Source: Geopseudomonas sagittaria
GTDB taxonomy: Bacteria > Pseudomonadota > Gammaproteobacteria > Pseudomonadales > Pseudomonadaceae
DNA: 64,000 nucleotides
Direction of reading: 5' to 3'
Assembly: GCF_900115715.1 (NCBI RefSeq)
Contig: NZ_FOXM01000001.1
Coordinates: forward strand, 186,001 to 250,000
Shown: piece after piece, positions 23,328-34,690 of the stretch
How the letters are laid out: every line of letters starts with the position of its first letter
Position numbering within the stretch: position 1 is the first letter of the stretch
The notes under the pieces: model-generated
What the model was told of the DNA's origin: nothing
Databases searched by the model: none
What the model saw: only the letters and a program-made list of their open reading frames with translations
Program-made: the position numbers and the translations under genes

Positions 23328-23423
23328 TGGCGGAAGGCAGTGAGAGTCGAACTCACCCGGGAACGGCTGCCGTCCCCAACCGGGTTTGAAGCCCGGCCGC
23401 GCCACCGGGCGCGATTGCCTTCC
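23328..23423 (-). tRNA. selC: tRNA-Sec, anticodon UCA
   Basis: 96 nucleotides on the minus strand. It has the hallmarks of bacterial tRNA-Sec: an 8-bp acceptor stem (GGAAGGCA with TGCCTTCC), anticodon TCA in the loop GGGCTTCAAACCC, a long variable arm (GGGACGGCAGCCGTTCCC), a T arm GTGAGTTCGACTCTCAC, discriminator G and an encoded CCA end. It is charged with Ser by SerRS and converted to Sec by SelA, then delivered by SelB. Both genes lie immediately upstream on the same strand. Confidence 0.97.
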
Positions 23424-23466: not shown

Positions 23467-25385
<1,919 letters not shown>

Positions 25386-25389
<4 letters not shown>

Positions 25390-26792
25390 GGTGCCGCTCC
25401 CGCGAGCTGCGCCAGCTGGGCGACGAAGGCCGGCTCGTCGTCGAGCTGGCGCAGGTCGAGCCACAGGGCGTCGTCGTCGAGACGGCCGATCACCGGCAGC
25501 GGCAGCAGGCGCAGCGCCTCCTCCAGCTGGCGCAGGGCGCGGCCGCGCAGGCGCCTGGGCTGCACGGGACGCAGGCACAGCGCGGCGCTGGGCAGACGCG
25601 CCACCGGCTGGGCGCCGCTGCCGATCATGCCCAGCGCGTCCGCGACGCTCACCTGCCAGCTCGGCCCCAGGGCGGCCTGCAGCTGCGGCGCCAGGCGCTC
25701 GGCCTGGGCGCGGATCTCCGCCTGCGGGCGGCTGAGCAGGCGCAGGGTCGGCAGCCGCTCGGCGAGACGCTCGGGATCGCGGTACAGGCCGAGCACCGCC
25801 TCCAGCGCGGCGAGGGTCAGCTTGTCGACGCGCAGGGCACGCTTGAGCGGGTGCTTCTTGATCTTGGCGATCAGCTCGCGCCGGCCGACGATGATCCCCG
25901 CCTGCGGGCCGCCGAGCAGCTTGTCGCCGCTGAAGGTGACGATATCGGCACCGGCGGCCAGCGCCTCCTGCACGGTCGGCTCGGCCGGCAGGCCCCAGCG
26001 GGTCAGGTCGACCAGGGTACCGCTGCCCAGGTCCTCGAGCAGCGGCAGCCCGTGGCCGTGGGCGATGGCGGCCAGTTGCCCGGTGGCCACGCTGGCGGTG
26101 AAGCCCTGCACGCAGTAGTTGCTGGTGTGCACGCGCATCAGCAGGCCGCTGCGCGGACCGATGGCCGCCTGGTAGTCCTTCGCATGGGTGCGGTTGGTGG
26201 TGCCGACCTCGACCAGCTTCACTCCGGCGCGGGCCATGATGTCGGGAATGCGGAAGGCGCCGCCGATCTCGATCAGCTCGCCGCGCGAGATGATGCCTTC
26301 CCTGCGCGCGCCGAGGGCGGCCAGCGCTAGCAGCACGGCGGCGGCGTTGTTGTTGACCACGGTGACCGCCTCGGCGCCGGTCAGCTCGCGCAGCAGGCCT
26401 TCGACCAGCTCGTCGCGGTCGCCGCGCCGGCCAGTGGCCAGGTCGTATTCGAGGTTGAGCGGGTAGCGCGCTGCCTCGACCAGCGCGTCGATGGCCGCCT
26501 GCGGCAGCAGGGCGCGGCCGAGGTTGGTGTGCAGCACGGTACCGGTGAGGTTGAACACCCGGCGCACGCGGCTCTGGTGGCGGGCGGCCAGACGCTCGCA
26601 GACGCGCCCGGCGAGCACCGCCTCGGAGAGCTCGACCTCCGCCAGCTGGCCGTGGCGGGCCGGCTCGCGCAGCTCGTCGAGCAGGTCGCGCAGGGTGACG
26701 AGCAGCGCCTCGCGGCCGTAGCGACGCTGCAACGGCGCCACCGCCGGACTGCGCAGCAGCTTGTCCACCGAGGGCAGGCGCAGGACAGTCAT
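25386..26792 (-). CDS. selA: L-seryl-tRNA(Sec) selenium transferase SelA
   Basis: 468 residues, normal length. PLP-dependent enzyme that converts Ser-tRNA(Sec) to Sec-tRNA(Sec) using selenophosphate. It has the N-terminal SelA tRNA-binding domain ([11 protein letters not shown]), [17 protein letters not shown], and PLP-binding Lys291 in [13 protein letters not shown]. The ATG overlaps the fdhE stop by four bases (ATGA), and its own stop overlaps the selB GTG, so fdhE, selA and selB are translationally coupled. selD is not in this window. Confidence 0.97.
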
Positions 26793-27712
26793 CCGTCGCC
26801 CCCGGGGATCAGCAGCAGGTTGGGCGCCTGGCGCAGGTAGCCCTGGCCATCCAGCAGCAGGTCGAGGTCGAGGCTGGCCAGGTCGGCGGATAGCGCCTCG
26901 CCGGCCGGCTCCAGCTCCAGGTAGAGCTGCTTGAGGTAGTGGCGGCACTCCGGGCAGGCCTCGGCGCGCACGCCATGCGGCGAGTGCTCGAGGTGCAGAT
27001 GGTCGAGCCGCTTGGTGCTCCGGCAGTGGTTGCACTTGAGGCGCACGTAGTGCCATTCGCAGGCGCACAGCGAGCAGACCAGGTAGCGCAGGCCGTTGCG
27101 CGAACCCTGGCCGTGGATCACCCCGGCCATCGGCAGCGCACCGCAGGCCGGGCAGGTCTGCTGGTCTTCGGCCTTGACGATGGCGGACAGGTCGAGGCCG
27201 AGCAGCCAGTGGCTCCAGGCCAGCTGCAGGGCGGCGCCGACGAAGGGTGCCACACCGGCCGGCACGCCGGCGAACTGGCCGCCGAGCAGCGCCACGCCCC
27301 AGGCCTTGCGCTGGCCGCCGGCGGCGTCACGCAACTGGTCGAGGACGGCGGCGAGGGATGGATTGACCGGCGCGGGCAGCACGAAGGCGGCCAGCCAGGC
27401 GTCGAGCAGCGCCAGCCAGGCCTCCTCGCGCACCCCGCTGTCGCAGGCCAGCGGCGGCAGGCCGTGGGCGATGGCCTGGGCGCAGCGCTGCGGATCGGGG
27501 GCGGCAACGGCCGGCGGCGCGTCCAGCACCTGCTGCTGGGCGTGACACACGGCGGCGAGCAATCGGAGGTAGTCGCCCAGCGCATGGCCGTCGGCAAGAT
27601 CGGCGAGGCGCTCGGCGCGCAGGGCGAACAGCTGGCGCGGCGGCAACTGGAGGAAGGCGGGCTTGCTGGCCGCGGCGGCGATCTGGCCGGGCTCGAGAAT
27701 GGTGCCTGGCAC
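26789..27712 (-). CDS. fdhE: Formate dehydrogenase accessory protein FdhE
   Basis: 307 residues. The C-terminal half has four Cys pairs, TCPACG, CSLC, CNHC and CPEC, which form the rubredoxin-like iron sites of FdhE. FdhE is needed for maturation of respiratory formate dehydrogenases. The best start is GTG at 27712, six bases after AAGGAG; longer frames run through repeat DNA. It overlaps selA by four bases, and is separated from the gamma-subunit gene by inverted repeats. Confidence 0.93.
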
Positions 27713-27835
27713 GCAGGACTCCTTCTGGGCTTGTTGTGGTTTTTCTGGGGCCTGAAGGCAAGCGTAGTAGCTGCGCTCGGGATTGCACGCCCACAGCGTG
27801 AGCCTGGTGGACAAGACCTGCGGTCGTTCTTTTCT

Positions 27836-27935
27836 CCCCTCTCCCGGGATCGGGAGAGGGGCCGGGGGTGAGGGTCGATGGGCGCAGCGGCTTTCCACCC
27901 TCACCCCAGCCCTCTCCCGCCAGCGGGAGAGGGGG
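27836..27935. repeat. Inverted pair of CCCTCTCCC palindromes between fdhE and fdnI
   Basis: Two palindromes in opposite orientation: CCCCTCTCCC/GGGAGAGGGG with a GGGTGAGGG tail (27836-27874), and CCCTCACCCC head with CCCTCTCCC/GGGAGAGGG (27898-27935). The whole unit can also fold on itself. This type of CCCTCACCCC-CCCTCTCCC element is widespread between genes in proteobacteria. It fills most of the 247-base gap within the cluster. Confidence 0.85.
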
Positions 27936-27959
27936 TATTCCCTGCCTGCCCTCCGCTTC

Positions 27960-28583
27960 TCACTTGCGCTGGCGCTCCACCTCCTTGAGCCAGCCCGCAT
28001 GGTGCTTGCGCGCCCAGGCGCGGCTGACCTTGCCGGTGAGCATCGCGCCCACCGAACCCTTGATCCAGATCGCCGCGTAGATGTGCACGATGATGCTGGT
28101 GATCAGCACGAAGGCCGCCAGGGCATGCGCGACGGCGGCCAGGCGGATCAGCTCGACGCCGAACAGGTGGCCGAAGTACTGCCGCCAGATGACGATGCCG
28201 CTGGCCAGCAGCACCAGCATGCTCAGCACCAGCACCCAGAACAGCAGCTTCTGCCCGGCGTTGTAGCGGCCGACTTCCGGCAGGCGCTCCTCGCGGTTGT
28301 TGAGCACGTCGCCGAGCTTGCCGAGCCACTGGCGGTCGTTGGCGTTCAGGCGGTTATGCCCGGCGAAGCGTATGGCCATGACCAGGAACAGCACGAACAT
28401 CGCCACGCCGAGGAAGGGATGCAGGATGCGCGTCCACACCCCGCCGCCGAACAGCTCGCTCAGCCAGAACAGCGCCGGATGGAACAGCGCCAGCCCGGAC
28501 AGCCCGGCGAGGAAGAACAGGATGGCCACGGCCCAGTGGTTGGACCGCTCCGAAGGGGTGTAGCGCTGGATCTCGTGTTTCAT
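27960..28583 (-). CDS. fdnI: Formate dehydrogenase-N gamma subunit (cytochrome b)
   Basis: 207 residues, an integral membrane cytochrome b556 with four helices. Histidines suited to bind two hemes are in SERSNHWAVAIL, RILHPFLGVAMF and IIVHIYAAIWIKG, the last matching the FdnI C-terminal helix. It passes electrons from the beta subunit to menaquinone or ubiquinone. The frame could be extended to 28742, but the ATG at 28583 gives the family N-terminus MKHEIQRYTPSER. A repeat element separates it from fdnH. Confidence 0.95.
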   Translation of the reverse strand: MKHEIQRYTPSERSNHWAVAILFFLAGLSGLALFHPALFWLSELFGGGVWTRILHPFLGVAMFVLFLVMAIRFAGHNRLNANDRQWLGKLGDVLNNREERLPEVGRYNAGQKLLFWVLVLSMLVLLASGIVIWRQYFGHLFGVELIRLAAVAHALAAFVLITSIIVHIYAAIWIKGSVGAMLTGKVSRAWARKHHAGWLKEVERQRK

Positions 28584-28616: not shown

Positions 28617-28662
28617 GCCCCCTTCACCCCGGCCCTCTCCCCCGAGGAGAGAGGGGGGTGGT
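28617..28662. repeat. CCCTCTC palindrome between fdnI and fdnH
   Basis: CCCTCTC, six bases, then GAGAGAGGG, preceded by TTCACCCCGG. Same family as the pair at 27.84-27.94 kb. It lies in the 109-base gap between two subunit genes of one enzyme, on the same transcript. Confidence 0.75.
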
Positions 28663-28692: not shown

Positions 28693-29616
28693 TCAGGACG
28701 GCTTGTTCGGATCGACCACATGCACCGACGGGTCGATTTCATGCACCGTCGGCTCGCCGGGGTCCTCCTCGTCGACCTTGTTCGGCCCGACCCGCACGTA
28801 GTGGAAGAAGCCGGCCAGCACCGTGGCGCCCATGGCCAGCAGCGTCAGCGGCTTGGTGATGCCCTTCCACAGACTGACCATCGGGCTGATCGCCGGCGCG
28901 TCGGGCAGGCCGGCGTACAGCGACGGCTGGTCGGCGTGGTGCAGCACGTACATCACGTGGGTACCGCCGACACCTTCCGGGTCGTACAGCCCGGCCTGGT
29001 CGAAGCCGCGTTCCTTGAGGTCGGCAATGCGCCCGGCGGCGTGCACCTGCATGTCCTCCTTGCTGCCGAACACGATGGCCCCGGTCGGGCAGGTCTTCAC
29101 GCAGGCCGGCTCCAGGCCAACCGCCACCCGGTCGCTGCACAGGGTGCACTTGTAGGCCTTCTTGTCCTTCTGCGAGATGCGCGGGATGTCGAACGGGCAA
29201 CCGGTGATGCAGTAGCCGCAGCCGATGCACTTGTCCTGGTTGAAGTCGACGATGCCGTTGGCGTACTTGACGATCGCCCCCGGACTCGGACACGCGGCCA
29301 GACAGCCGGGCTCGGCGCAGTGCATGCAGCCGTCCTTGCGGATCAGCCATTCGAGGTTGCCGGTGCCCGGGTTCTCGTACTCGGTGAAGCGCATCAGCGT
29401 CCAGGAGTCGGCGCTGAGGTCGTTGGGGTTGTCGTAGGTGCCGGCGTTGTGACCGACCTCGTCGCGCAGCTCGTTCCACTCCGAACAGGCCACCTGGCAG
29501 GCCTTGCAGCCGATGCACTTGGAAGTGTCGATCAGCTTGGCCACCTCGCCGACCTGGCGCACCTGCGGCATCGGCGTGGTGGTGGCGGAACGGGCGATGA
29601 TGTCTTGGCTGGCCAT
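28693..29616 (-). CDS. fdnH: Formate dehydrogenase-N beta subunit (4x 4Fe-4S)
   Basis: 307 residues. Four ferredoxin-type cysteine groups are complete: [37 protein letters not shown] and CTLCSDR with ACVKTCP. A single C-terminal membrane helix ([20 protein letters not shown]) anchors the protein on the periplasmic side. It relays electrons from the Sec/Mo alpha subunit to the heme gamma subunit. The ATG lies one base beyond the fdnG stop codon. Confidence 0.97.
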
Positions 29617-29617
29617 G

Positions 29618-32600
29618 TCACACCTTCTCCACGTTCACGAGGAACGACTTGAACTCCGGGGTCTGCGTGTTGCCGTCGCCGACGAAGGGCGTCAGGGTGT
29701 TGGTGATGAAGCCGTTCTTGGCCACCCCGGTGAAGCCCCAGTGGATCGGGATGCCGACGTGGTGCACGGTCTTGCCGTCCACCGTCAGCGGCCGCAGGCG
29801 CTTGGTCACCACCGCCACCGCCTTGATGTAGCCGCGGTTGGAGGAGACCCTGACGCGGTCGCCGGCCTTGATGCCGAGATCCTTGGCCAGCGCCTCGCCG
29901 ATCTCGACGAACTGCTCGGGCTGGGTGATGGCGGCGAGCCGGCAGTGCTTGGTCCAGTAGTGGAAGTGCTCGGTCAGCCGGTAGGTGGTGGCGGCATAGG
30001 GGAACTCCGCCGCCTTGCCGAACACCTCCAGGTCGTTCTTGAATACCCGTGCCGCCGGGTTGCTGATCGCCTGGACGTTGCCGTGCAGCGGGTTGCGCCC
30101 GATCGGCGTCTCGAACGGCTCGTAGTGCTCGGGGAACGGCCCCTCGGCCATCTTGTCGACGGCGAAGAAACGCGCCACCCCTTCGGGGTTCATGATGAAC
30201 GGGTTCATGCCCTCTTCCGGCGCCGAGTCGGCCTTGAAGTCGGGCACGTCGGTGCCGCCCCAGCTCTTGCCGTTCCACCACACCAGGCGCTTCTTCACCG
30301 GATCCCACGGCCGGCCCGAAGGATCGGCCGAGGCGCGGTTGTAGAGGATGCGCCGGTTGGCCGGCCAGGCCCAGGCCCAGCCGAGAGTCTGGCCCATGCC
30401 GTAGGGATCGGCGTTGTCGCGCCGCGCCATCTGGTTGCCGGCCGCCGTCCAGGCGCCGCTGAAGATCCAGCAGCCGCTGGCGGTCGAACCGTCGGCACGC
30501 AGCTGGGCGAAGCCCGCCAGCTGTTCGCCGGCCCTGGCCAGCACGGCGCCGCTCACCGGGTCGCTGAGCTCGGCCAGCGCCTTGCCGCTGAACTCGCGGG
30601 CCAGCTCGTCCGGCCCCGGCTCATCCGGGCGCAGGTAGGACCAGTCGAGGTTGAGGATCGGCTCGGCGAAGGCACCGCCCTCCTTCGCGTACAGCGCGCG
30701 CAGGCGGTGGAACAGCCCGGCCATGATTGCGATGTCGGTGCGCGCCTCGCCGGGCGGCTCGGCGGCCTTCCAGTGCCACTGCAGCCAGCGCCCGCTGTTG
30801 ACCAGCGAACCGTCCTCCTCGGCGAAGCAGGTGGTCGGCAGGCGGAACACCGTGGTCTGGATACTGGCGGTGTCGACATCGTTGAACTCGCCGGCATTGC
30901 GCCAGAACTCCGAGGTGTCGGTGACCAGCGGGTCCATGATCACCAGGTACTTGAGCCGGGCCAGCGCCGCGCCGACCTTGGCCTTGTTGGGGAATGCCGC
31001 TATCGGGTTGAAGCCCTGGCAGAAGTAGCCGTTGATCTTGCCCTGGTACATCAGGTCGAACACCCGCAGCACGTCGTAGGCCGGTACATCCAGCTTGGGC
31101 AGCCAGTGGTAGCCCCAGTCGTTCTCCGCCGTGGCGCTCTTGCCGTACCAGGCCTTCATCAGGCTGACGTGGAACTTCTCGTAGTTCTGCCAGTAGGACA
31201 GCTGCCCCGGGCGCAGCGGCTTCTGCGTGCGCCTGGCGATGTAGGAGGCGTAGTCCTGCTCGGCGTCGCCGGCCAGGGTCAGGTAGCCAGGCAGCGAGTT
31301 GGACAGCAGGCCTAGGTCGGTGAGGCCCTGGATGTTGGAGTGGCCGCGCAGGGCGTTCATGCCGCCGCCGGGCATGCCGATGTTGCCGAGCAGCAGCTGC
31401 ACCATGGCGCCGGTGCGGATCATCTGCGAGCCCACCGTGTGCTGGGTCCAGCCCAGGGCGTACATGATGGTCATCACCTTGTCCGGCCGGGACGTCTCGG
31501 CGATGGTCTCCCAGACCTTGAGCATGGTTTCCTGCGGCGTGCCGCAGATGCTGCTGACCAGCTCCGGCGTGTAGCGGCTGTAGTGCTGTTTGAGCAGGTT
31601 GTACACGCAGCGCGGGTGGCTGAGGGTCGGGTCGACCACCGCGTAGCCGTCCGCGCCGATCTCGTAGCCCCAGGCGGACTTGTCCGGATAGCTGCGCTTT
31701 TCCGCGTCGTAGCCGTTGAACAGGCCGTCCGCGAAGCCGTAGGCCTCCTTCACCACGAACGCCAGGTCGGTGTAGTTGCGCACGTACTCGTGCTGGATCT
31801 TGTCATTGGCGATCAGGTAGTTGATCAGCCCGCCGAGGAAGGCGATGTCCGTGCCGGTGCGGATCGGCGCGTACAGGTCGGCCACCGAGGCGGAGCGGTT
31901 GAAGCGCGGGTCGACCACGATCAGGCGCGCCTTGTTGTGCGCCTTCGCTTCGGTCACCCACTTGAAGCCGCAGGGGTGGGCTTCGGCGGCGTTGCCGCCC
32001 ATGATCAGCACCAGGTCCGCATTCTGAATGTCGGACCAGTGATTGGTCATGGCGCCACGGCCAAACGTCGGGGCAAGACCTGCCACCGTCGGGCCGTGTC
32101 AGACACGCGCCTGGTTGTCGAACGCCAGCATGCCCAGCGAACGCACCACCTTGTGGGTGATGTAGCCCGCTTCGTTGGAGGACGCCGAGGCGGCCAGGAA
32201 ACCGGTGGAGAGCCAGCGGTTGACCGTCTGCCCCTGCTCGTTGCGCTCGACGAAGTTGGCGTCGCGGTCGGCCTTCATCAGCCGGGTGATACGCTCCAGC
32301 GCCTCGTCCCAGCTCAGCCGCTTCCACTCGCTGCTGCCGGCCTCGCGCACCTCGGGGTACTTGAGGCGGTTGGGGCTGTGCACGAAGTCCAGGAGGCCCG
32401 CGCCCTTCGGACACAGGGTGCCGCGGTTGACCGGGTGGTCGGCGTCGCCCTCGATGTGGATGATCTCCTGGGCGACGTTCTTGCCGCCGTCGCCCCGGCT
32501 GTACATGATCAGGCCGCAGCCGACCGAACAGTACGGGCAGGTGTTGCGCGTCTCGCGGGTGCTGGCCAGCTTGAAGTGGCGGATCGTCTCGGCAAAGGCC

Positions 32601-32689
32601 GGCGGCGGCGCCATGCCCAGCGCCGCCAGGCTCGACGCCCCAAGGCCTACACCGCAGACCTTGAAGAACTGCCGACGGTTCATGTCCAT
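29618..32689 (-). CDS. fdnG: Formate dehydrogenase-N alpha subunit, selenocysteine-containing
   Basis: 1023 residues when UGA at 32101-32099 is read as selenocysteine (residue 197). The flanking sequence [20 protein letters not shown] is the same motif as in E. coli FdnG. The N-terminus has a twin-arginine signal (NRRQFFKV, then a hydrophobic stretch to PAFA), so the enzyme is exported folded. A 4Fe-4S site (CPYCSVGC with LCPKG) and molybdopterin domains follow. Reaction: formate to CO2 in the periplasm. Start at 32689 with GAGGAAG upstream. Read without Sec, it would look like two separate genes; a standard caller would split it. Confidence 0.97.
32066..32101 (-). promoter_or_regulatory. Bacterial SECIS element in fdnG
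   Basis: Immediately after the UGA (bases 1-3), bases 11-21 pair with 27-36 leaving a bulged T at base 17 and one A-A mismatch; the apical loop is GGTCT (bases 22-26). The bulged U17 and the GGUC loop are the SelB-binding determinants in E. coli SECIS elements. Distances from the UGA match exactly. Confidence 0.92.
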
Positions 32690-32784
32690 CGTGTCTTCCT
32701 CATCAGGGACAGGGAAGCCCATGGCCTGGCAATACCACTGGCGAACCACTCGAACGGCCCGGGCAACTGCAACGCCTTAACCAT
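32680..32784 (-). CDS. Possible 34-codon leader ORF overlapping the fdnG start
   Basis: A short frame, MVKALQLPGPFEWFASGIAR and 14 more residues, begins 95 bases before fdnG and ends within the fdnG start (its TGA shares bases with the second fdnG ATG). The first 20 codons look coding in base composition, but the ribosome site is poor (GGAGG 13 bases upstream). It could be a translated leader or chance. I do not recognise the peptide. Confidence 0.3.
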   Translation of the reverse strand: MVKALQLPGPFEWFASGIARPWASLSLMRKTRWT

Positions 32785-32875
32785 AGTCCACTCTGTCCTC
32801 CCTGCCAGTGGCGGCTCGCCCTGACCGCTTGCGGCATACTATCGACCTGCCTGTCCCGTTCCGCGGAGTCGCACC

Positions 32876-33328
32876 ATGTCCTCGTTCAGCTGGTTCCTGC
32901 TCGCCCTGCCCCTGCTCTCCGGGGCCATGATGCCGATGCAGGCCGGCATCAATGGCCAGCTGGCGCGCCACATCGACAGCGTGCTGAGCGCCTCGCTGAT
33001 TTCCTTTCTGGTCGGCAGCCTGCTTCTGCTGGTCATCACCCTGGCCCAGCGCGAACTGCCCAGCAGCCTCTTGCCGTTCAAGGGCCTCAGCTGGTGGCAT
33101 TGGACTGGCGGCCTGCTCGGCGTGCTGTTCGTGGTCAGCGCCGCCTTCGCCGGCCCGCGCATCGGCGCCCTGCTGTTCATGTCGCTGGTGCTGGCCGGGC
33201 AGATGAGCGCGGCGGTGGTGCTCGACCACTACGGCTGGGCCGGCTTTCCCCAGGCCTCGGTGACCCCGGGCAAGATCGCCGGGCTGGTGCTGATCGTCGT
33301 CGGAGTGTGGCTGATCCGCCGCGGCTGA
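32876..33328 (+). CDS. DMT-superfamily permease, DUF606/YdcZ type
   Basis: 150 residues, five membrane helices, starting FSWFLLALPLLSGAMMPMQAGINGQLAR, the typical DUF606 N-terminus, with AAFAGPRIGALLFMSLVLAGQ in the middle. Such half-size permeases usually work as dimers or pairs; substrates are unknown. It is divergent from fdnG with 186 bases between, which must hold both promoters. It converges with the SdiA-regulated gene, 3 bases apart. Confidence 0.88.
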   Translation: MSSFSWFLLALPLLSGAMMPMQAGINGQLARHIDSVLSASLISFLVGSLLLLVITLAQRELPSSLLPFKGLSWWHWTGGLLGVLFVVSAAFAGPRIGALLFMSLVLAGQMSAAVVLDHYGWAGFPQASVTPGKIAGLVLIVVGVWLIRRG

Positions 33329-33331
33329 GGC

Positions 33332-34267
33332 TCAATCGCGACTCAGGCGATAGAACAGGTTCGGCTCGCTGACCAGGTAGAGGTGGCCGTCTCCGTCGAC
33401 GGTCATGCCCTCGGCCTGCGGCACACTGCGCTGCAGGCCGGCGAAGCCGCCCTGCAGCGAGCGGAAGCTGACCAGCTGGCCCTCGCCGTTCAACTCCATC
33501 ACCAGCCGCGACTCGTCGCTGAGCAGCAGCAGATGACCGCTGCGCTCGTCGAAGTGCACCGAAGACAGGTCGCTGGCGATCACAGCGTCGCCAATCCACG
33601 CCTGGCGGTCGATCACCTGCAGGTCGAAGCGGCCGTCCAGGCTGGCGCGCAGGCCGCGGATTTCGTAGAGCTTGCGCGGCGAATGTTCCTTGACCACAAA
33701 CAGCCGGTCGCCGGCGCGATCGTAGCCGAGGCCCTCGAAGCCGCTGTTCTCCGTGCCCTGCAGGCCCAGGGTCAGTGCCTGGTAGTCGTCGCGCCGCAAC
33801 GGGGCGCCCTGATCGGGCACCGGCACCACTACCAGCGCGCCGCGACGCTCCTCGGCCAACACCAGCAGGTTGTCGCCGAGGTAGGCGATGCCCTCGACAT
33901 CCTCGAAGCCCTGCAGCGGCCAGCGCCCGCGCAGCTCGCCCTCGCGGCTCAGCGCCAGCAGTTCGGGCGGGTTGTTGACCACCGCCCACAGCTGGCCGCG
34001 GCGCTCATCCCAGGTCAGCCCGGAGAGGTTGTCGTCGATGCCGGCCAGCGGACGCGCCTCGACCCGCACCCGATAGTCGGGCAGCCACAGGCTGCGCGCC
34101 TGCCACTCGTCGGCATGGCCGCTGGTGCGCAGCCACTGGTAGAGACGCTGGTCGAGGTGCAGCGCCTGCATCTGCCAGAGCAGCGCCACGACGCCCAGCA
34201 GCAGCGCCCAGTGCCATGCGGTGAGCAGCACCAGCCGTCCCGGCCGGCCCTTCAAAACAGTCATCAT
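33332..34267 (-). CDS. SdiA-regulated/YjiK-like beta-propeller protein
   Basis: 311 residues. One N-terminal membrane helix (about 12-32) then a periplasmic six-bladed propeller domain of the SdiA-regulated (YjiK) family, with repeated blocks LSGLTWDERRGQLWAVVNNP, GFEDVEGIAYLGDN, NSGFEGLGYDRAGDRLFVVK and QAEGMTVDGDGHLYLVSEPN. Acidic residues in these blades usually bind calcium or another metal. Function is not known. Two adjacent ATGs (34267 and 34264) are possible starts. Confidence 0.9.
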   Translation of the reverse strand: MMTVLKGRPGRLVLLTAWHWALLLGVVALLWQMQALHLDQRLYQWLRTSGHADEWQARSLWLPDYRVRVEARPLAGIDDNLSGLTWDERRGQLWAVVNNPPELLALSREGELRGRWPLQGFEDVEGIAYLGDNLLVLAEERRGALVVVPVPDQGAPLRRDDYQALTLGLQGTENSGFEGLGYDRAGDRLFVVKEHSPRKLYEIRGLRASLDGRFDLQVIDRQAWIGDAVIASDLSSVHFDERSGHLLLLSDESRLVMELNGEGQLVSFRSLQGGFAGLQRSVPQAEGMTVDGDGHLYLVSEPNLFYRLSRD

Positions 34268-34410
34268 CGGGATGTTCTCTGGGTTAGGGCAGCAGGCAGT
34301 CTGTGCGTTTCATGTTGCAGCCCGATTACCCTGGCAGGCGCCCTCCCGTGACCGGCACGGCGCAGCGGGATAGACTGCGCGCCCTTTTCAACAACCCACG
34401 GATCACGACC

Positions 34411-34690
34411 ATGCGCCTGGCCCTCGCCGCGCGAGCGACCGTGGCCGGCACCCGTTGCTGCGCGTCTGAAACAGACTCGCCATTGCCGAGACCCTTGCCT
34501 TCTCCAGCATAGTCGGAGTCGCCGCCAAGATCGGCTTGTGCGCCTCGTTCTGCATCGCAGTGGTGATCGCCTTCGCCTGGTCGGCGGCCGGCTGGAATCG
34601 ATGATCAACGCCACCAGCGCCGGCCGCATCGGCGTGCCCGACAAACCCGCCGCATCGACCATCTTCTGGAGTACTGAGCGAGCACCATGA
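34411..34690 (+). pseudogene. Frameshifted small membrane protein upstream of dinF
   Basis: Coding-like sequence continues through three frames: MRLALAARATVAGT from 34411, then RLAIAETLAFSSIVGVAAKI and a hydrophobic helix (LCASFCIAVVIAFAWSAAGW) ending at 34604, then MINATSAGRIGVPDKPAAST to a stop overlapping the dinF ATG (ATGA). Joined, they would give a protein of about 90 residues with one helix. Two indels separate them, so this is a decayed gene or contains sequence errors. Family not recognised. Confidence 0.45.

Follow-up and report, generated by a model that had tools for sequence, protein, structure and literature searches.

Genes at the locus

We analyzed a stretch of 64,000 nucleotides from Geopseudomonas sagittaria, hereafter the window, and give all coordinates as positions within it. 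Its minus strand carries fdnG, which is crossed by an in-frame UGA codon at 32099-32101. On the same strand, 3' of fdnG, lie fdnH, fdnI, fdhE, selA, selB, and the gene for tRNA-Sec, in that order. The features are as follows:

29618..32689, minus strand: fdnG, formate dehydrogenase-N alpha subunit, one gene with a predicted selenocysteine (Sec) at residue 197 (TIGR01553, 1kqf_A)
32099..32101, minus strand: in-frame UGA, almost certainly read as selenocysteine (translation; TGA in 87 of 90 aligned loci)
32056..32098, minus strand: predicted SECIS hairpin, from first to last paired base, with unpaired U17 and loop GGUCU (fold; Rfam RF01989)
28693..29616, minus strand: fdnH, formate dehydrogenase beta (Fe-S) subunit (TIGR01582, 459.3 bits, cut-off 334.7)
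27960..28583, minus strand: fdnI, formate dehydrogenase gamma (cytochrome b) subunit (TIGR01583, 202.6 bits, cut-off 115.85)
26789..27712, minus strand: fdhE, formate dehydrogenase accessory protein, GTG start (TIGR01562, 329.4 bits, cut-off 187.65; frame checked)
25386..26792, minus strand: selA, L-seryl-tRNA(Sec) selenium transferase (TIGR00474, 602.6 bits, cut-off 267.9)
23467..25389, minus strand: selB, selenocysteine-specific elongation factor, GTG start (TIGR00475, 492.5 bits, cut-off 242.25; frame checked)
23332..23423, minus strand: selC, tRNA-Sec with a UCA anticodon (RF01852, 81.2 bits, gathering score 47)

For each of the products of fdnH, fdnI, fdhE, selA, and selB, one or more NCBIfam equivalog models give a score above their cut-off; fdnI falls short of the cut-offs of two more narrowly defined models, and fdhE of one. 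ARAGORN places the tRNA-Sec at 23328-23423, with anticodon tca. Elsewhere in the genome, on contig C30, there is a selD gene (442.8 bits, cut-off 125). The genome holds selA, selB, selC, and selD, which is one mark by which a bacterial selenoprotein gene is recognized.

Several other features of the region were recorded. Three related 42-nt GC-rich palindromic repeats (of the CCCTCTCCC...GGGAGAGGG type) are present at 27822-27936 and 28618-28659: two are between fdnI and fdhE and one is between fdnH and fdnI. Compared with the reference copy, the other two show 62% and 74% identity, and the repeats look like dispersed intergenic hairpin repeats. A crude search for an Anr/Fnr-type box, using four simple patterns of the TTGA..TCAA type, found none of them in 32690-33000 on the minus strand. 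By eye, positions 34407-34686, between a minus-strand open reading frame (33332-34267) and a plus-strand one that begins at 34687, resemble a decayed short coding remnant.

One reading frame across the UGA

Without recoding, a mechanical caller of open reading frames reports two frames, 32099-32749 and 29618-32086, which abut the UGA. Translation places both in one reading frame across it. From the ATG at 32689, fdnG comprises 196 codons, the UGA, and then 826 codons up to the terminal UGA at 29620-29618; besides 32099-32101, this frame of 1,023 codons has no stop ahead of the terminal one. With the UGA decoded as Sec, translation would yield a single 1,023-residue protein. The start is likely to be the ATG at 32689 (or that at 32683), which would make Sec residue 197 (or 195).

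The joined protein belongs to TIGR01553 by the family's own threshold: it exceeds the curated cut-off over its whole length (1471.9 bits, cut-off 814.2; residues 3-1022 against profile positions 2-1009 of 1009). The structure of E. coli FdnG (1kqf_A) aligns to residues 1-1022 with an E value of 0, and the homology is unbroken over the UGA. Residue 197 pairs with a residue marked X in 1kqf_A, which we take to be Sec196 of the E. coli protein. An orthologue from E. coli shares 66% identity with the protein (680 of 1,023 aligned columns). The first-pass annotation had proposed that the two open frames are a single FdnG if the UGA encodes Sec, and had pointed to alignment with E. coli FdnG as the check; the shared frame, the TIGR01553 score, and the alignment to 1kqf_A all bear this out. 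When the genome was searched with FdnG, there were nine matches, and only the window's fdnG had an internal stop.

A hairpin directly 3' of the UGA

We number the bases of the hairpin so that the U of UGA is 1. The UGA and the following 44 nt (47 nt in all) have a predicted folding energy of -25.5 kcal/mol, as compared to a mean of -17.06 kcal/mol (standard deviation 2.68) for dinucleotide shuffles of the same sequence (z = -3.15); just 1 of 200 shuffles folds as well, and the other 199 fold worse. The predicted structure has an unpaired U17 and, at its apex, the loop G22-G23-U24-C25-U26, just as the first-pass annotation had described it (a bulged U at base 17 and a GGUCU loop). That annotation had also named two outcomes that would count against it, namely no homology over the UGA or a fold that lacks the bulged U and the GGUC loop, and neither occurred. 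Its interval for the feature, 32063-32101, takes in the UGA and most of the hairpin, but the pairs run from 32098 to 32056, so part of the basal stem on its 3' side was cut off.

The Rfam model SECIS_3 (RF01989) matches 32104-32046 with 84.7 bits (gathering score 63; E = 1.1e-18 in a search of the 64-kb window). Every one of the 59 model positions is filled by the hairpin, none of its pairs is marked as non-standard, and it departs from the consensus by single letters only. With the model SECIS_2, this hairpin is the sole match in the genome at E values up to 0.001, and it scores under that model's cut-off. Prokaryotic SECIS elements conserve, for SelB binding, a U that bulges from the upper stem and, in the loop, a G next to a U, both unpaired, according to the part of the literature that we draw on here (PMC8704476). 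The predicted element directly 3' of the UGA has all of these features. The first-pass annotation did not give the strand of the gene. We also considered a hairpin on the plus strand (32099-32145), which was ruled out by its poor fold (z = +1.49).

Conservation among relatives

To compare the locus with its relatives, we selected the 80 best from at least 592 that were confirmed in genome contigs; these are mutually related, so they are not independent observations. The named relatives among the first 22 matches listed are all titled Pseudomonas or Stutzerimonas. The Sec codon is TGA in every one of these 80 nearest relatives (80/80, chosen as the best from at least 592), as it is in all seven FdnG loci of the genus, including the window's own. 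We aligned 90 loci in total: the 80 relatives, the window's locus, six other FdnG loci from the genus, and three loci with TGC. Across the alignment, the codon is TGA in 87 loci and TGC in 3, so the in-frame UGA stands where homologues have a predicted Sec or a Cys.

The hairpin is also conserved. U17, G23, and U24 are present in all 87 Sec loci, and position 17 is unpaired in the minimum-energy folds of all 87 (structures were read by eye). The stem arrangement is the same in 81 of these loci, with a reduced number of basal pairs or an extended upper stem in some; for the other six, the lower stem is rearranged in the minimum-energy fold. Since the hairpin is nearly invariant, covariation would say little at most pairs.

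We asked how often relatives use the window's own codon where the amino acid is conserved; the relatives are interrelated, and this is a descriptive comparison. Mean codon identity is 0.84 at the 15 scored positions of residues 198-213 versus 0.68 at 653 positions elsewhere. Among 829 sliding windows of 15 codons, the three highest (0.92) start at residues 195-197, and the next highest (0.88-0.90) start at 543-547 and 499-501. The codon signal under the hairpin is the highest in fdnG, but not by a wide margin. Two rare codons lie within this stretch: CTT (2 of 82 leucine codons in fdnG) at residue 205 and GCA (4 of 112 alanine codons) at residue 203, each kept in 78 of the 80 relatives. Judged from codon usage, this constraint is the trace that would be expected of an RNA structure overlying coding sequence.

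The neighbors tend to be shared as well: of the 80 kept loci, 80 have a match to fdnH, 79 to fdnI, 75 to fdhE, and 67 to selA, within up to 4 kb of flanking sequence per locus; contig ends cut some of these flanks, so a miss need not be an absence. Two of the 80 loci have a SelB match without a SelA match inside the fetched flank, and the order of sel genes may differ there.

Cysteine paralogues and the spread of the SECIS signal

SECIS_3 has a second match in the genome, at G000:C22:179702-179760 (positions 1501-1559 of locus L002), with 39.5 bits, which is under the gathering score of 63. We rejected it as a SECIS element: the codon is TGC (Cys), and the RNA fold is unlike a SECIS. The encoded paralogue is 29% identical to FdnG over the aligned segment and 41% identical over residues 43-296. 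All three TGC loci (L002, L009, and L010) were taken in through weak SECIS_3 matches (33-40 bits). They are distant formate-dehydrogenase-like paralogues (27-29% identity) that, having Cys, require no SECIS, and all three fold differently, with position 17 paired. Their SECIS_3 scores are probably an effect of coding sequence, with an RNA model matching over a conserved protein motif.

Within the genus, SECIS_3 scores above its cut-off in seven of eight genomes, including the window's own, and a search of the eighth (G001) found no SECIS_3 match, so the Sec trait is not universal. With 3.2 Mb, G001 is the smallest genome of the eight, which would fit with the Sec trait having been lost. Across 298 genomes drawn from the family, 161 have a SECIS_3 match above the cut-off, and among 14 control genomes, there were matches only in E. 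coli. Nine family genomes (G021, G074, G088, G132, G147, G182, G188, G197, and G244) each have two matches above the cut-off among the matches listed, which suggests two Sec-containing formate dehydrogenases per genome.

How the UGA is probably decoded

For the window, we established the reading frame, its homology and conservation, the predicted fold, and the gene content; that SelB binds, that Sec is inserted, that the enzyme is active, and that the genes are co-transcribed we infer by analogy from established work in E. coli. Judging by the sequence, the UGA at 32099-32101 is almost certainly read as selenocysteine and fdnG is intact. SelB, with Sec-tRNA(Sec), would bind the hairpin 3' of the UGA via its bulged U and the GU in its loop, and would bring selenocysteine to the UGA in place of termination. 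The result would be a full-length FdnG whose active site contains Sec. Together with FdnH and FdnI, it would form a membrane formate dehydrogenase, whose assembly FdhE would assist. The decoding machinery would be supplied by SelA, SelB, and tRNA-Sec from the same cluster and by SelD from elsewhere in the genome.

We consider it close to certain that fdnG is a standard selenoprotein gene of this kind, with the UGA decoded as Sec via SelB and the hairpin to give full-length FdnG. That a naive caller yields two frames is what we would also see if fdnG were a pseudogene, disrupted where a Cys or Sec codon used to be, either by a nonsense mutation or through an error in sequencing. However, neither kind of accident fits with the same TGA in 80 of the 80 relatives that were kept (the best of at least 592), with a hairpin that is intact and constrained, with the lack of any further stop before the terminal one in 1,023 codons, or with the presence of the decoding genes, and we regard a pseudogene as extremely improbable.

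The UGA might instead be a regulated switch, such that a shortage of selenium leads to a 196-residue product with its own role and plentiful selenium leads to the full enzyme. Termination and Sec insertion do compete at Sec UGA codons, and this general rule is the basis for the idea. But most of the enzyme is missing from the short frame, and there is no sign in the sequence of a separate role for the short product, so a switch of this kind is hardly credible. A different way for the UGA to sense selenium is through polarity: poor read-through would lower the expression of selA, selB, and selC, giving a feedback loop. This is conceivable because these genes are downstream of fdnG on the same strand, but we think it very unlikely.

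Implications for annotation

The significance of this result is for annotation only: fdnG should be recorded as one selenoprotein and not as two fragments. The first-pass annotation expected automated callers to report a truncated gene or a pseudogene at this site. This is correct for the mechanical caller, which splits the gene, but it does not extend to a RefSeq record that we inspected for E. coli. Using blastn with 990 bases of the 5' third of fdnG as the query, we found a match in 5,377 of 5,426 E. coli genomes. The record for E. coli Nissle 1917, which is the only one we inspected, has a single coding sequence of 3,051 nt that spans the UGA, and its translation has a single internal U, at residue 196. 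RefSeq annotation can thus deal with such genes. According to the available portion of a review, automated tools often truncate or miss selenoprotein genes (PMC13188914).

Comparison with known systems

The closest characterized counterparts are FdnG of E. coli (PDB 1kqf) and its paralogue FdoG. The alignment is full length, with Sec196 there corresponding to Sec197 in the window, and U17 and G23-U24-C25 are at identical positions in the hairpin. The E. coli copy that we compared, to which the 66% protein identity refers, has A22 in the loop, whereas the window's fdnG has G22. (This copy has the name fdnG in RefSeq, yet it is followed by fdoH and fdoI.) The surroundings also differ: no sel gene is annotated in the 6.9-kb stretch from E. 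coli, while in the window, the sel genes come after the fdn genes in one cluster.

The arrangement in the window is closer to what has been described for its own order. As far as the consulted parts of a 2006 paper in Genome Biology go, FdhA is the only selenoprotein in Pseudomonadales, it is encoded near or beside a selA-selB-selC operon, and it is described as horizontally acquired (PMC1794560). The table of a 2005 prediction survey, from the portion we drew on, already includes a formate dehydrogenase for Pseudomonas putida KT2440 (PMC1242214). The layout of fdhA with selA-selB-selC, to the extent that those parts of the 2006 paper describe it, is the same as in the window, and we saw no difference between them. 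On the same portions of that paper, a Sec-containing FdhA beside its own sel cluster is already known in Pseudomonadales and has been in print since 2006 (PMC1794560).
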